Assembly (NCBI GenBank): GCA_021737275.1
Contig: JAIPEE010000031.1
Location: forward strand, 1 to 48,238
Direction: 5' to 3'
DNA from: Desulfobacterales bacterium
GTDB lineage: Bacteria; Desulfobacterota; Desulfobacteria; Desulfobacterales; JAIPEE01
DNA: 48,238 bases
The notes below the pieces were generated by a model. That model was not told where the DNA came from and did no database searches. It saw only the letters and a program-made list of their open reading frames with translations. Shown one piece after another: positions 31,135 to 37,262 of this stretch; within the stretch, counting starts at the first letter, position 1; each line of letters begins with the position of its first letter. The translations under genes were made by a program, and so were the position numbers.

Positions 31135-31836
31135 TTATGGCAAAGAGATGGCATCAACATACTGCATTATAGCTTTAAACAGAGATGCGCTATGGCCAAT
31201 CTGTATATACGCCTCTTCTTCCGTGATCAGCCTTGCTTCATTTTCAACTTTATTACCCAATTGGATAGAAAAATTGGCGATTCTGGCAATCTCGTCAGCC
31301 AGATCCTTTTCAGAATTAATGGTTATGGAATAAATTTTAATCTTTTCAAGCGATTCTAAAACCCGGTCATTTACAATGCTGTCCGTCCTTTTATGGTAGG
31401 TTCGGTTGTATTCATTGTAAAAGGTATTATGAAGGGGTTGAGACAAATCACCCACATAGTGCGCACAAAACGCCAAATGGTATTCCCCGTATTTCTCTCT
31501 TTGCCGGTCCTTTTTATAATCTCTCAAAGAAGCAATAATGGCACCATAAAGATGTCCCCTGTCATCAGTTTTATTATATAAATCGGCCTGTTTAAGAACC
31601 ATCTCCGGCGTAATAACCGTACCGGGTGGATTATTTGAATAATGGTTATACCGCTCTATGAAGCCGGCTTTTATTTTTATCATATCGGCGCCGGCCGCAT
31701 TATACCATTTATAATATTTTGCAGCTTTTGCGATGGCAAGATGCGTCTCATCATGCCATGCAAAGGAATAGTTCGGTAAAATAGTAACAAAAAGTAAAAC
31801 AACCGTTAACCTGATATAAAACCTGATAAGCGTCAT
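31135..31836 (-). CDS. Secreted S1/P1 nuclease or zinc phospholipase C-like protein
   Basis: The 233-residue protein has a signal peptide (about 1-26, ending SFA) directly followed by WHDETH. In this superfamily the mature N-terminal tryptophan itself coordinates zinc, so W27 and the nearby histidines fit. The second metal motif, HLAFCAHYVGDLSQPLHN, matches the family's HxxGDxxxPLH. The trinuclear zinc enzymes of this fold hydrolyse phosphodiesters in nucleic acids or phospholipids. It is therefore probably a periplasmic or exported hydrolase. It is monocistronic; the gene ends 43 bases before the start of the Mut7-C gene on the same strand. Confidence 0.85.
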   Translation of the reverse strand: MTLIRFYIRLTVVLLFVTILPNYSFAWHDETHLAIAKAAKYYKWYNAAGADMIKIKAGFIERYNHYSNNPPGTVITPEMVLKQADLYNKTDDRGHLYGAIIASLRDYKKDRQREKYGEYHLAFCAHYVGDLSQPLHNTFYNEYNRTYHKRTDSIVNDRVLESLEKIKIYSITINSEKDLADEIARIANFSIQLGNKVENEARLITEEEAYIQIGHSASLFKAIMQYVDAISLP

Positions 31837-32144
31837 GATTTCTCCTGAAGTTTAATTTGAGCAGACTTTATAATATTAAAATAATCAGACCGAATATATC
31901 AAGCGTATAATATTTTTTTTAAATATTAATCGTACGTGTACTCGGTTTTCAATTTAGAACAAATTCACCGGAAAACGATGACCATACCACCCGAATATCA
32001 GTGGAGATGGTTTAAATACAAGATCTAAAGAATTATGATTAAAAGTAAACTTACGATTAAGAAAAAATGATCAGTCATAAAGCTATTTACAGGTTCACGT
32101 ATGCCCCCCTTGTAATATAAATAGAGGTGTTTATATTGTTAATT
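31837..32144. other. Divergent intergenic region before the ClpX-like/heme operon
   Basis: About 300 AT-rich bases upstream of both the secreted hydrolase gene and the ClpX-like gene. It must contain both promoters, but no good -35/-10 pair, sigma-54 match or hairpin stood out. Confidence 0.35.
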
Positions 32145-33929
32145 ATGAGTGACTTACGCAATGACAAAAAGCCGGGCCATGAAGAGCTTGAAAAAGAAAT
32201 TAGTGATTTCCTCTCCAGAAAGTTTGGGGATGAAGGCAAACTGATTCAACCTGTTGTTATGCCCGAAAAAGCGCTGCTTGAAAAGGACGCCAACGGTTCC
32301 GACAAAAAAGAGAGGCCTGTCAATTTTGACCTTAAACCTGAAGAACTGGTCTCCTATCTTGATCAGTACATTGTTAAGCAGGACAAAGCCAAGGCTATTC
32401 TTGCGACTAAAATCTGTACTCATTTCAACAGGATAAAACATACTGAATCCGGACAGAATCTGACAGGAAACATGGTTGGCCGGATTAAAAATAATGTATT
32501 AATGATCGGGCCCACCGGTGTCGGCAAAACATACATGATCAAGCTGATTGCTAATAAAATAGGTGTACCCTTTGTCAAAGGTGATGCCACCAAATTCAGT
32601 GAAACCGGTTATGTGGGAGGTGATGTAGAAGATCTGGTACGTGATCTTGTCCGTGAAGCCGACAATAATATTGAACTGGCCCAGTTTGGAATTATCTATA
32701 TTGATGAAATTGATAAGATAGCCTCAAGCGGAAATACCATCGGGGCAGATGTCTCCAGAACCGGAGTTCAGCGTGCACTCCTTAAGCCCATGGAGGAAAC
32801 TGATGTTGAGCTCAAGGTGCCCCATGACCCGATCTCAATGATGCAGGAAATTGAGCGTTACCGTAAAACCGGTGAAAGAGACAGGGCCACTGTTAATACA
32901 AGAAATATCCTCTTTATCATGAGTGGTGCGTTTTCAGAGATTAGTGATATCATCAGCAAACGTATTGCCGATCAAAGTATTGGTTTTGGTGCGAACATTT
33001 CAAAACCCCGGGATCGTGATAATGTATTACAGCATCTCCGTTCAGAAGACCTGAGTGCATTCGGGTTTGAATCGGAATTTGTCGGCCGCTTACCGGTAAG
33101 AGCTGTTTTTGAAAAACTGACTGAGGATGACCTTTACGAAATTCTGAAGAATCCGAACAATCCGGTTATACTCGGTAAAAAACTTGATTTTGCGGCATAT
33201 GGTATTGATATCAAGTTCGATGATGAACTGCGTCGACACCTTGCGAAACAGGCATTTGAAGAAAATACCGGTGCCAGGGGGCTTGTCAGCGCAGTTGAAA
33301 CAGCCCTGCTTCTTTTCGAAACAAAGCTCCCATCTACAACTGTCAATACTTTTCCGGCTACGGTTTCAATAATTGAAAATCCGGAAGATACCCTCAACAA
33401 TCTTATTACTGCAGCAAAAGAAGGAGCGTCGGACGAGCTTTATGATAAGCTTGCTGAAGAAGAAAAAAAGCTTATCGGAGACTACCTGGCAGCCAACCGG
33501 AAAATGCTTTTGGATAAGCACGGCCTTTCGCTTACACCTTCACGGATTGAGCTTGTAGCAACCTTTTACTGTTCATCAATAATGGATATCGGGCAGGCTG
33601 TTTCAAAAATAAAACTTTATTATGATGAAATTAAAAAAGTGGAATTGTCTTTTTATGAAAAACATGACATGAATCTGATTTTGGAAGATGACGCGATTGA
33701 TTTTATCATCGGCCGGTTTATTGGTTCATCGCTGACTGCAAGCATCCTGCTTAATCAACTTTCAACCGATTTTGAACTGGGGCTGAAACTGATCAGGGAT
33801 AAAACCGGAAAAAGCCGTTTTTTTATAAGTAAGCAGGCGTTTTTAAACCCGGATATATATTTGAATGAACTGATAAAACATGAGCTTGAAAACGAGAATA
33901 AAATTCAAGATAAGGATAATATTATATGA
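32145..33929 (+). CDS. ClpX-like AAA+ unfoldase with long C-terminal extension, no zinc-binding domain
   Basis: This 594-residue AAA+ protein has a ClpX core: Walker A GPTGVGKT (122-129), pore loop ETGYVGGD, Walker B IIYIDEID (183-190), the IGF tripeptide (279-281) that docks ClpX onto ClpP, box VII FVGRLPV, and sensor 2 GARGL (376-380). It differs from housekeeping ClpX in three ways. The N-terminal C4 zinc domain is replaced by about 60 charged residues. The RKH-loop region carries a different, longer insert (about 222-250). About 185 extra residues follow the small AAA domain. The last codons overlap the ahbC start (ATGA), so the operon continues into heme synthesis. I chose the ATG at 32145; a GTG at 32127 is in frame. 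A role in remodelling heme-pathway enzymes is inference only. Confidence 0.85.
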   Translation: MSDLRNDKKPGHEELEKEISDFLSRKFGDEGKLIQPVVMPEKALLEKDANGSDKKERPVNFDLKPEELVSYLDQYIVKQDKAKAILATKICTHFNRIKHTESGQNLTGNMVGRIKNNVLMIGPTGVGKTYMIKLIANKIGVPFVKGDATKFSETGYVGGDVEDLVRDLVREADNNIELAQFGIIYIDEIDKIASSGNTIGADVSRTGVQRALLKPMEETDVELKVPHDPISMMQEIERYRKTGERDRATVNTRNILFIMSGAFSEISDIISKRIADQSIGFGANISKPRDRDNVLQHLRSEDLSAFGFESEFVGRLPVRAVFEKLTEDDLYEILKNPNNPVILGKKLDFAAYGIDIKFDDELRRHLAKQAFEENTGARGLVSAVETALLLFETKLPSTTVNTFPATVSIIENPEDTLNNLITAAKEGASDELYDKLAEEEKKLIGDYLAANRKMLLDKHGLSLTPSRIELVATFYCSSIMDIGQAVSKIKLYYDEIKKVELSFYEKHDMNLILEDDAIDFIIGRFIGSSLTASILLNQLSTDFELGLKLIRDKTGKSRFFISKQAFLNPDIYLNELIKHELENENKIQDKDNII

Positions 33930-35113
33930 TTGGAATATCAAAACTATACTGTGGAACGGTTGAGCCGTCCGATGCACTGCGCTATGGACGGCAATCCGGC
34001 AAAATGCCCTCTCACCTGCTGCAGTTTTCAAAAGACAAAAAACCCGTTATTGTCTGGAATACTACCCGGAGATGTAATCTGAAGTGCGTTCACTGTTATG
34101 CACAGGCGGATGATCGTGAATTTGAAAACGAACTGACAACCGAAGAAGGCAAAAAACTTATTGATGATCTTTCTGAATTCGGCTCACCGGTTATGCTCTT
34201 TTCAGGTGGAGAACCGCTTGTCAGAAAAGATCTGCCTGAACTGGCCGATTATGCGGTTCAAAAGGGTATGCGGGCTGTTATTTCCACTAACGGCACCCTG
34301 ATCACTCCGGCCGTTGCAAAGAATCTCAAGGAGATCGGCCTCTCCTATGTGGGCATCAGTATAGACGGTATGGAAGAAATTAATGACCGCTTCCGCGGCG
34401 TAGCCGGAGCTTACCGGAAAGCACTTGAAGGTATCCGAAACAGTCAGGATGCCGGTATCAAGGTTGGCCTTCGGTTTACCATAAATAAATTTAATGTCGG
34501 TGAAATCTCACAAATATTTGATCTGCTTGAAAAAGAAGAGATTCCAAGAGTCTGTTTTTATCACCTGGTTTATGCAGGACGCGGTTCGAAACTGGTTGAA
34601 GATGATCTTTCCCATGAAGAATCCAGAAAAGCGGTAAATCTGATTATGGATCGCACAAGAGATCTGCATGACAGGGGGAAGGCCAAAGAAGTTTTAACTG
34701 TAGATAATCATGCAGATGGCCCATTTCTCTATCTTAGAATGAAACAAGAAGATCCGGAACGCGCCAAAGAGGTGCTTGAACTGCTGGAAATGAATGAGGG
34801 CAACAGCTCCGGCCGGGGCATAGGGTGCGTTAGCTGGGATGGCAGTGTCTATGCCGATCAGTTCTGGCGGCATCATAATTTTGGAAATATTCGCCAACGG
34901 CCATTCTCGGAAATCTGGACAGATACGTCCGAACCGCTGATGGGTAAACTTAAAGAGAAAAAGAAACACGTAAAGGGACGGTGTGCAGAGTGTAAATGGC
35001 TTGATATCTGCGGCGGTAACTTCAGAGTTCGCGCTGAAGCAGTATCAGGTGATGTATGGGCACCGGATCCGGCTTGTTATTTAACTGACGAAGAAATTGG
35101 ATTGGGAGAATAA
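33926..35113 (+). CDS. ahbC: AhbC, 12,18-didecarboxysiroheme deacetylase (radical SAM)
   Basis: The 395-residue radical SAM protein has the cluster motif C50, C54, C57 in RRCNLKCVHCYA and the GGEPL motif that contacts SAM. It also has a C-terminal auxiliary-cluster cysteine set (GRCAECKWLDICGGN and the later ACYLTD). The start MIGISKLYCGTVEPSDALRY and the neighbouring hemB and ahbD identify it as AhbC. AhbC removes the acetate side chains of 12,18-didecarboxysiroheme to give Fe-coproporphyrin III in the siroheme-dependent heme route of sulfate reducers and archaea. It is translationally coupled to the ClpX-like gene, and hemB follows after 3 bases. Confidence 0.92.
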   Translation: MIGISKLYCGTVEPSDALRYGRQSGKMPSHLLQFSKDKKPVIVWNTTRRCNLKCVHCYAQADDREFENELTTEEGKKLIDDLSEFGSPVMLFSGGEPLVRKDLPELADYAVQKGMRAVISTNGTLITPAVAKNLKEIGLSYVGISIDGMEEINDRFRGVAGAYRKALEGIRNSQDAGIKVGLRFTINKFNVGEISQIFDLLEKEEIPRVCFYHLVYAGRGSKLVEDDLSHEESRKAVNLIMDRTRDLHDRGKAKEVLTVDNHADGPFLYLRMKQEDPERAKEVLELLEMNEGNSSGRGIGCVSWDGSVYADQFWRHHNFGNIRQRPFSEIWTDTSEPLMGKLKEKKKHVKGRCAECKWLDICGGNFRVRAEAVSGDVWAPDPACYLTDEEIGLGE

Positions 35114-35116
35114 AAG

Positions 35117-36091
35117 ATGCTGTTTCCTGACTACAGACCGAGGCGTATGCGAAAAACCGAAGCGTTCCGCCGTATGATTCGTGAGACAAAACTTTCAGTT
35201 GACGATTTTATTCTGCCGCTTTTTGCAATAGGCGGTAAGAATGTTAAAAATCCAATCAAATCCATGCCGGGGCACTTTCAATTATCCCTGGATAATCTTG
35301 TAAAAACAGCAAAAGAGGCTTTTGACGCAGATATTCCGGCCATTATGCTGTTTGGCGTACCGGACAAAAAAGATGCACTGGCATCCAGTGCCTATGCAAA
35401 AAACGGTATTGTGCAGAAAGCCATAAAAGCAGTAAAAGATAAACTTCCGGATCTGGCGGTTATTACCGATGTATGCCTCTGTCAGTATACGGATCATGGC
35501 CATTGCGGTTTTGTCGAGGGTAATTATGTTGATAATGATACATCCCTTGAACTGATTGCAAAGACAGCTCTTTCCCATGCCAATGCCGGTGCGGATATGG
35601 TGGCCCCATCAGATATGATGGATGGCCGCGTTGCTGAAATAAGGGGTACGCTGGATGAAGATGGTTTTTCAGACATTCCGATCATGGCCTATTCTGCAAA
35701 ATACTGTTCCGCTTATTACGGACCGTTCAGACAGGCCGCAGATTCTGCACCGCAGCATGGTGACAGAAAGTCTTACCAGATGGATCCGGCCAATTCACTT
35801 GAAGCCATCCGTGAAGCAACAATGGATATTGAAGAAGGCGCAGATATCCTCATGGTGAAACCGGCACTTCCCTATCTTGATATTATCAGCAAGATCAGGG
35901 ATGAAAGTGATCTTCCGCTCGCTGCATATAATGTCAGTGGTGAGTATGCCATGGTCAAGGCTGCAGAAAAGATGGGATGGATAGACGGACAAAAAGTAAT
36001 GATGGAGACACTGACATCAATCAAACGGGCCGGTGCGGATATCATTCTTACCTATCATGCCCTTGAAGCGGCAAAAGTGCTTAACGATTAA
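35117..36091 (+). CDS. hemB: Delta-aminolevulinic acid dehydratase (porphobilinogen synthase)
   Basis: The 324-residue enzyme condenses two 5-aminolevulinates to porphobilinogen, the first common step to siroheme, heme and cobalamin. The two active-site lysines are visible: K195 in [15 protein letters not shown] and K248 in [13 protein letters not shown]. The cysteines of [14 protein letters not shown] (C120, C122, C130) mark the zinc-dependent type. It starts 3 bases after ahbC with GGGAGAAT as ribosome binding site, and ahbD follows, so the cluster makes both the early precursor and the final heme. Confidence 0.97.
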
Positions 36092-36155: not shown

Positions 36156-37262
36156 ATGAGACCGGATCATAAACACGAATCAAAAAAACCAACTCATGGC
36201 CATCTTCAGGAAAAAGAAAAAAATGCTTCCCTCAGGCTGGTTGCATGGGAAACTACAAGAAACTGTAATCTCGAATGTGTTCATTGCCGCGCATCTGCAA
36301 CAAAAGGCCCCTTTACAGGGGAACTGACAACAGAGCAGGGTATCACCCTGATGGATCAAATTGCTGAAGTAGGCAAACCGATTATTATTCTTACCGGCGG
36401 TGAGGTTTTATTGCGTCCGGATATTTTTGAAATTGCCAAATACGGCAATGAAAAGGGACTCCGCATGGTAATGTCGCCCAACGGCACACTGATCAATGAA
36501 GAAAATACCCAAAAGATGCTGGACGCCGGTATTAAAAGAATCAGTGTCAGCCTGGACGGTGCCACAAAAGAGGTCCATGACAAGTTCCGTGGCGTTGAAG
36601 GTGCGTATGACAGTGCCATAAATGGTATTCATATCGCCAAACAAGCCGGTATTGAGTTTCAAATTAACACCACTATCTCCAAAGCAAATCTCAAGGAAAT
36701 CCCGAAAATTCTTGCCCTGGCTGAAAAACTCGGTGCTGTGGCCCATCACATTTTTCTCCTTGTACCAACCGGACGCGGAAAATATATTCTTGATCAGGAA
36801 ATTGATGCACAGGAATATGAAGAAACATTAAACTGGTTTTATGATCAGCGGGATAAAACACCGCTGCAGTTAAAGGCCACATGTGCTCCGCACTATTATC
36901 GGATACTCAGACAGCGCGCCCGTAAAGACGGTAAAACGGTTACCTATGAATCTCATGGTCTTGATGCCGTAACACGCGGATGTCTGGCCGGAACAGGTTT
37001 TTGTTTTGTATCACACCGGGGTATTGTTCAACCCTGTGGATTTCTGGATCTTAATTGTGGTGATGTGACCCGAGCGTCATTTGCAGACATCTGGGAATCC
37101 TCAGAAAAATTCAATACGCTTCGTAATTTCAGTAAGCTGGAAGGCAAATGCGGCGTCTGTGAATATAAACGTGTTTGTGGCGGCTGTCGCGCCCGTGCTT
37201 ATGAAGCTACAGGAGACTATATGGCTGAAGAGCCGCTTTGCAGTTATCAGCCTGAGCGTTAA
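36156..37262 (+). CDS. ahbD: AhbD, heme synthase (Fe-coproporphyrin III oxidative decarboxylase, radical SAM)
   Basis: The 368-residue radical SAM protein has C37, C41, C44 in TTRNCNLECVHCRAS, the GGEVL SAM motif, and a C-terminal SPASM-like auxiliary cluster region (GFCFVSHRGIVQPCG, then CGVCEYKRVCGGCRARA, then EPLC). AhbD converts the two propionates of Fe-coproporphyrin III to vinyls, giving heme b without oxygen. The order ahbC-hemB-ahbD fits this role. The related nirJ-type proteins are the main alternative. The nearby histidine-rich start (RPDHKHESKKPTHGH) is common in AhbD. Confidence 0.92.
   Translation: MRPDHKHESKKPTHGHLQEKEKNASLRLVAWETTRNCNLECVHCRASATKGPFTGELTTEQGITLMDQIAEVGKPIIILTGGEVLLRPDIFEIAKYGNEKGLRMVMSPNGTLINEENTQKMLDAGIKRISVSLDGATKEVHDKFRGVEGAYDSAINGIHIAKQAGIEFQINTTISKANLKEIPKILALAEKLGAVAHHIFLLVPTGRGKYILDQEIDAQEYEETLNWFYDQRDKTPLQLKATCAPHYYRILRQRARKDGKTVTYESHGLDAVTRGCLAGTGFCFVSHRGIVQPCGFLDLNCGDVTRASFADIWESSEKFNTLRNFSKLEGKCGVCEYKRVCGGCRARAYEATGDYMAEEPLCSYQPER

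Follow-up and report, generated by a model that had tools for sequence, protein, structure and literature searches.

A ClpX-like unfoldase gene at the head of a putative heme-synthesis operon in a Desulfobacterales bacterium

The clpX-like gene and its product

We analysed a stretch of 48,238 nucleotides from a Desulfobacterales bacterium, which is referred to in its whole length as the window. It contains a gene for a ClpX-like AAA+ unfoldase that appears, from the gene order, to be the head of a putative operon with ahbC, hemB, and ahbD, since the ORF on its 5' side is divergent. The products of the three following genes scored above the cut-offs of their models: AhbC with TIGR04546 (772 bits vs 650), HemB with NF006762 (513.5 bits vs 297), and AhbD with TIGR04545 (555.3 bits vs 500). 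An earlier reading of the DNA letters, hereafter the sequence-only reading, had stated that the stop codon of the clpX-like gene overlaps the start of ahbC by ATGA and that hemB and ahbD come next, and this arrangement was confirmed (33926-33929). The hemB gene starts 3 bases past ahbC, and ahbD lies 2.2 kb past the clpX-like stop. In-frame alternative starts were observed 5' of the clpX-like ORF (GTG at 32127 and TTG at 32136), and its exact start is therefore uncertain. The interval 32145-35113, to which the sequence-only reading referred, spans both the clpX-like gene and ahbC. The features are as follows.

32145..33929, + strand, clpX-like gene, ClpX-like AAA+ unfoldase of 594 aa, first in the putative operon (ORF, domain matches)
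32178..32234, + strand, N-terminal helix, aa 12-30, in place of the ClpX zinc domain (model helix, of low confidence there; conserved residues)
32508..32531, + strand, Walker A GPTGVGKT, aa 122-129 (sequence motif)
32607..32618, + strand, pore loop 1 GYVG, aa 155-158 (in 147/147 sequences)
32691..32714, + strand, Walker B IIYIDEID, aa 183-190 (sequence motif)
32787..32900, + strand, longer conserved loop replacing the RKH region, aa 215-252 (alignment)
32979..32987, + strand, IGF, the ClpP-docking tripeptide of ClpX, aa 279-281 ([ILMV]GF in 147/147 sequences)
33117..33428, + strand, first small (sensor-2) domain, about aa 325-428, TGARGL intact (domain matches, model, alignment, hhalign)
33438..33617, + strand, predicted helical insert, about aa 432-491 by the alignment gap (model, alignment)
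33606..33863, + strand, predicted degenerate second small domain, about aa 488-573, without the GAR motif (fold match, hhalign)
33926..33929, + strand, ATGA, clpX-like stop overlapping the ahbC start (read directly)
33926..35113, + strand, ahbC, 12,18-didecarboxysiroheme deacetylase (TIGR04546 above cut-off)
35117..36091, + strand, hemB, porphobilinogen synthase (NF006762 above cut-off)
36156..37262, + strand, ahbD, heme b synthase (TIGR04545 above cut-off)

The clpX-like protein matched AAA_2, AAA, and ClpB_D2-small above the Pfam cut-offs. Its best NCBIfam matches were ClpX models, yet both curated cut-offs were missed (307.5 vs 359 and 277.8 vs 370.75 bits). The nearest solved relatives by sequence were ClpX chains, and in structural alignment, too, the full-length model (mean pLDDT 74) fitted ClpX chains best, such as 6wrf_F (Z 19.0 over 227 residues at 3.5 A, within model residues 62-315). 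The likeness to ClpX (TIGR00382 / PRK05342) consists of the AAA+ large and small domains, GYVG, the Walker and sensor motifs, and [ILMV]GF, whereas the zinc N-domain is lacking, the RKH region is replaced, and a second, degenerate small domain and a helical insert are predicted in addition. HslU (TIGR00390) shares the AAA+ fold and has a small domain resembling this second one, but it matched the clpX-like protein more weakly (172 bits vs a cut-off of 362.45).

Motifs were counted in 147 sequences of at least 520 residues, namely that of the window and those of 146 loci of the same phylum. The Walker motifs, GYVG, sensor 1, the arginine-finger region, and sensor 2, present as GAR in the clpX-like protein, were nearly or fully invariant. 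ClpX docks on ClpP through its IGF tripeptide, and the corresponding position was IGF in 107, LGF in 23, MGF in 11, and VGF in 6 of the sequences. The ClpX core was complete including IGF, as had been read. The loss of the zinc domain also held: no cysteine was found within residues 1-60 of the clpX-like protein, four or more cysteines occurred among the first 60 residues in only 1/147 family members, and a conserved N-terminal helix motif stands at this place. ClpX recognizes tags with its RKH loop. This loop, whose region had been described as different, was absent from the clpX-like protein, and a longer loop, KVPHDPxS..., was found instead, in which H227 (137/147), D228 (147/147), P229 (136/147), T242 (144/147), and G243 (147/147) were conserved. 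A study on Myxococcus xanthus also states the role of RKH in tag recognition for ClpX (PMC11423568).

The C-terminal extension had been regarded as new. Indeed, neither Pfam nor, at E <= 10, the PDB sequences yielded a match for the last 195 residues. When the extension was modelled in isolation, using an alignment of 20 sequences, the mean pLDDT was 88, and Foldseek alone found nothing for this model at E <= 0.001. VIA-align, which ranked Foldseek's candidates only, aligned residues 100-182 of this model (aa 491-573) best with a ClpX small domain (Z 7.8, middling by the tool's own scale, 82 residues, 2.6 A); small domains of ClpX, HslU, ClpB/ClpC, or Lon made up most of its top-ranked structures, although a handful of different proteins, DNA polymerase epsilon subunit B and RuvBL among them, also appeared there. 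Furthermore, in hhalign, whose E-values apply to single pairs, the segment aa 478-590 matched the first small domain of the clpX-like protein at 97.1% (E 6.8e-11) and a set of 60 small domains from canonical ClpX at 93.3% (E 2.7e-07), and three other segments of the clpX-like protein used as controls gave 1.2%, 0.3%, and 32.3% (E 0.043, 0.21, and 0.00048). A new fold is disfavoured by the structural alignment to small domains and by the hhalign match to the first small domain. Taken together, the extension is best read, from sequence and model, as a degenerate duplicate of the ClpX small domain, in which the sensor-2 arginine is lost, plus a helical insert of about 60 residues, which was missing from the aligned Verrucomicrobial and Latescibacterial relatives. 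Such a tandem small domain would by itself be an unusual AAA+ architecture.

The source genome also encodes a 415-residue clpX with the zinc-domain cysteines, adjoining clpP. The clpX-like protein is accordingly not the sole ClpX of the organism, and it shared 41% identity with the ordinary ClpX over its aa 53-398. One ClpP was detected by TIGR00493; PF00574 also matched, weakly, two more open frames, 444 and 314 aa long. hslU with hslV was present separately. Ordinary ClpX was found in 52/58 genomes of the order at E <= 1e-60 (own genome included) and above cut-off in 7/7 Verrucomicrobial or Latescibacterial genomes tested. Six genomes of the order had neither a detected clpP nor clpX (the latter at E <= 1e-60), and five of the six keep the clpX-like gene; the [ILMV]GF tripeptide was present in all four that were read among these five.

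Distribution and gene neighbourhoods of the family

Using a profile of the C-terminal extension, we detected the clpX-like family in 187/395 genomes of the window's phylum (completeness >= 80%) and in 25/115 genomes sampled from the phylum to which a Verrucomicrobiales genome belongs. It was also found in one Latescibacterota genome and one genome labelled Poribacteria; in a mixed-origin genome set including the latter, 2/9 carry it. Within the order (58 genomes, own included), the paralogue was observed in 54 at E <= 1e-60, near full length in 52 and as pieces in 2. Judged by sequence, the clpX-like protein is a member of a deep paralogue family of ClpX.

The conservation of the neighbourhood was examined at 150 loci, which were the window and 149 loci from other genomes of the phylum, 37/187 family-positive genomes being outside the sample. 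Each locus was sorted by which gene lay on the same strand no more than 1.5 kb downstream, with ahbC, hemB, and a DnaJ-type gene considered in this order. ahbC was found at 75 loci, hemB without ahbC at 18, a DnaJ-type gene at 36, and none of the three at 16; the remaining 5 were unreadable (contig end 4, no match 1). ahbC or hemB is therefore downstream in 93/145 readable loci. A LonB-like protease gene followed the DnaJ-type gene in 10 of the 36 DnaJ loci, the protein family being assigned on a single example of either gene, and in no locus of the 150 did DnaJ occur together with ahbC or hemB. Counted over 46 families (by family code), ahbC was found in that of the window and 22 others, hemB in 8 further, and DnaJ in 10, so that the ahbC/hemB link, mostly with short gaps, extends over 31 families in all. 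Two of these contexts were never seen within a single family; one family (f108) had 6 loci with ahbC and 2 with none of the three. Within the order, ahbC was within 1.5 kb downstream in 49/54 genomes with the paralogue, the exceptions being G024, G031 (ahbC at 2.6 kb), G033 (contig ends), G040, and G041, and two further genomes (G025 and G049) had ahbC without the clpX-like gene.

In the AhbC context, the next same-strand ORF overlapped by 4 bases in 18/63 loci. The downstream sharing of 97.6% in this context is fixed by how the loci were sorted. On the upstream side, the proportion of between-family locus pairs with a gene in common was 1.1% for the AhbC, 17.4% for the HemB, and 0.7% for the DnaJ context. 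Since the upstream genes of the AhbC context are hardly shared, hitchhiking at such depth is unlikely there, and it is less well excluded in the HemB context, where the upstream side is partly shared. In the protein tree, made by a quick search with no bootstrap, one side held the rows of tetrapyrrole context (103 rows, with 7 'other' and 4 unreadable among them; SH-aLRT 88, which is below the tool's starred level) and the other side held the DnaJ-context rows (39 rows; SH-aLRT 92). The context changed 12 times on the tree vs 74.3 in shuffles, a contrast of which near-copies explain part.

Outside this sample, 34 loci were taken from 20 of the 25 positive Verrucomicrobial genomes, L048-L059, Poribacteria, and G567, and 31 gave an ORF. 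AhbC, HemB, AhbD, DnaJ, and Lon were found at positions -2 to +3 in none of these 31 except G567, a genome labelled Deltaproteobacteria, in which the family gene has hemB at +1. Judged by gene order and the tree, one branch has a real heme link of old date and operon-like form, and another branch pairs with chaperones. The recurrence of the pairing across many families hints at a dedicated way of controlling the heme pathway.

The presence of AhbC itself was scored at E <= 1e-150, which gave 209 genomes of the phylum, 182 above and 27 below the curated cut-off. Among the 395 genomes, 126 had both the family and AhbC and 125 had neither; the family occurred without AhbC in 61, and AhbC without the family in 83. 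Accordingly, AhbC was absent from 61/187 family-positive genomes and the family from 83/209 AhbC-positive genomes; together with the DnaJ-type genes at 36/150 loci, these counts show no strict pairing of the two. The odds ratio of 3.1, which is uncorrected for relatedness and includes the 27/209 AhbC assignments under the cut-off, was given little weight as proof of an AhbC link. In G024 and G041, which keep the clpX-like gene before hemB, no AhbC was found and AhbD reached only 101 and 85 bits at best vs the cut-off of 500. A service to AhbC alone is unsupported, being weakened by these two genomes and by the loci with only hemB.

Several loci carry possible partner genes. A small receiver-like gene was observed between the clpX-like gene and hemB or ahbC in 18 loci (11 in the hemB context and 7 in the ahbC context). 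At what we take to be the position of the usual phospho-acceptor Asp, the 17 receiver-like proteins with a correct ORF had R (10), E (6), or S (1). The receiver-like protein of L138 matched Pfam Response_reg above cut-off, and at L285 a receiver-like match lay at -2 on the opposite strand. CpdR consists of a single receiver domain. It is described as a ClpXP adaptor of Caulobacter (PMC8119881). Furthermore, a 70-73-residue CxxC protein was encoded directly downstream in 3/5 readable loci of two families (f97 and f127), and a PpiD-like gene was found at +2 in L156, with a protein of similar start in L210.

Possible functions of the clpX-like protein

The motor motifs and the docking tripeptide are kept and the recognition parts are changed. 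These features indicate that the clpX-like protein is probably an unfoldase able to serve ClpP, with substrates other than those of ordinary ClpX. The likeliest reading, which we put forward tentatively, is that of an alternative unfoldase which docks on ClpP, has a substrate set separate from that of ClpX, and was recruited to tetrapyrrole synthesis in the window's branch. The protein would form a ring docking on the cell's ClpP beside ordinary ClpX and would take its own substrates, presumably chosen by the new loop and the extra domain. The product of a neighbouring gene, either the receiver-like protein without the phospho-acceptor Asp or a J-protein, may help to choose them in some lineages. 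In the window's branch, production of the protein might be tied to that of AhbC and HemB so that the amount or condition of tetrapyrrole enzymes can be adjusted, a proposal that is less certain than the others.

The depth of the ahbC/hemB link favours such a tetrapyrrole role in the window's branch. The sequence-only reading had gone further and suggested a possible dedicated chaperone or regulated-proteolysis factor for the siroheme-dependent heme enzymes. Neither of the two conditions that it named as refuting, an occurrence mostly away from ahb/hem genes and a single ClpX in the genome, was borne out, given the ahbC/hemB neighbours at 93/145 loci and the ordinary clpX beside clpP. The proposal was nevertheless too narrow: the loci with DnaJ/Lon neighbours, the members from other phyla, such as the Verrucomicrobial ones without a heme neighbour, and the genomes without AhbC, G024 and G041 among them, show that a tetrapyrrole role would not be that of the whole family, and many AhbC-positive genomes do without the family. 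A more specific version, in which a ClpX-type protease motor with two small domains is devoted, within one deep branch of sulfate-reducer relatives, to the control of tetrapyrrole synthesis, with its specificity set by its loop, extra domain, and neighbour-encoded partners, as a separately arisen counterpart of mitochondrial ClpX and ALAS, is rather unlikely. Mitochondrial ClpX acts on ALAS (PMC8361296), activating it by partial unfolding (PMC7077987). Both cases tie a ClpX-type motor to heme synthesis, but the enzymes differ, ALAS is outside the clpX-like operon, and a common origin of the heme link has no support here. The mitochondrial case sets a precedent for the logic and is not evidence.

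The same observations can be explained in other ways. It is possible, if somewhat doubtful, that the protein is a general stress or quality-control unfoldase docked to ClpP and that its place before ahbC or hemB is an old arrangement without a functional link. The DnaJ-type and LonB-like genes, the PpiD-like gene and its similar-start counterpart, the Verrucomicrobial loci, and the retention of the gene in G024 and G041 without AhbC and AhbD are consistent with this explanation. So is a candidate relative, M. xanthus ClpX3 (MXAN_2743), described in PMC11423568 as an extra ClpX without the N-domain and the RKH motif, isolated in the genome, whose loss weakens growth at 36 C; it shares both absences with the clpX-like protein, as compared by its description only. 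An unlinked arrangement, however, fits poorly with an ahbC/hemB link in 31 families, mostly with short gaps, and with the hardly shared upstream side of the AhbC context.

ClpP might also be dispensable. The overlap of the clpX-like gene with ahbC and the mitochondrial precedent of activation by partial unfolding (PMC7077987) would suit a remodeller working without ClpP, by which AhbC, HemB, or some other enzyme of tetrapyrrole synthesis is partly unfolded and so activated, for example in cofactor loading. The joint lack of clpP and clpX in five genomes with the clpX-like gene, unless due to assembly gaps, speaks against ClpP docking; because clpP and clpX are neighbours, a gap in which both were missed together explains it as well as real loss. 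The docking tripeptide in 147/147 sequences, and in four of those five genomes, suggests selection for docking, and we consider such a remodeller quite unlikely. That the protein is merely the diverged ordinary ClpX of the organism is extremely improbable: its best matches are ClpX models and chains, but both NCBIfam cut-offs were missed, and the zinc-domain clpX beside clpP in the same genome rules this candidate out.

Our search of open-licence papers found no description of the clpX-like family or of clpX with ahbC, which does not prove that none exists. The substrate range of ClpX is usually thought to be widened by adaptors. The preferred reading, an alternative ClpP-docking unfoldase, would differ in this respect: a widespread second ClpX with intact motor motifs, a conserved docking loop, and entirely different recognition parts could add a substrate channel into the same ClpP. 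The HemB/AhbC link in 31 families points to a concrete, testable substrate set, and a tetrapyrrole link would open up to study how the siroheme-dependent heme route, of which little is understood, is controlled.

Upstream gene and heme-synthesis context

One divergent ORF was found upstream of the clpX-like gene, with a Pfam score for S1/P1 nuclease of 25.5 bits, below the cut-off of 29.5.

Window 31135-31836, minus strand: ORF with sub-cut-off resemblance to S1/P1 nuclease

When AhbC and AhbD were searched for in genomes G024 and G041 (loci L012 and L039), neither was found, and hemB immediately follows the clpX-like gene in both.

Genomes without detected clpP and ordinary clpX

Searches for ordinary clpX (E <= 1e-60) and for clpP (TIGR00493) found neither gene in G013, G018, G026, G049, G050, and G055, possibly owing to assembly gaps. 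The clpX-like gene is retained in these genomes, G049 being the exception.

Other neighbours of the clpX-like gene

A small receiver-like gene was observed immediately downstream of the clpX-like gene at L134-L136, L138, L140, L143, L229, L238-L240, L244-L246, L252, L256, L261, L264, and L272. In the ORFs read, excluding L143, where the ORF was miscalled, R, E or S occupies the usual place of the phospho-acceptor Asp (17/17); because of this replacement, the usual phosphorylation of these proteins is unlikely.

At L156 (7819-9914), L210, and L243, the clpX-like gene is followed by one encoding a CxxC protein of 70-73 residues. Next comes a PpiD-like peptidyl-prolyl isomerase gene at L156, and at L210 a protein with a similar start.

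In a different branch of the family, the clpX-like gene is followed in turn by genes for a DnaJ-type protein and a LonB-like protease (L124-L127, L129, L161, L173, L174, L179, and L266), and this row is a proteostasis cluster.
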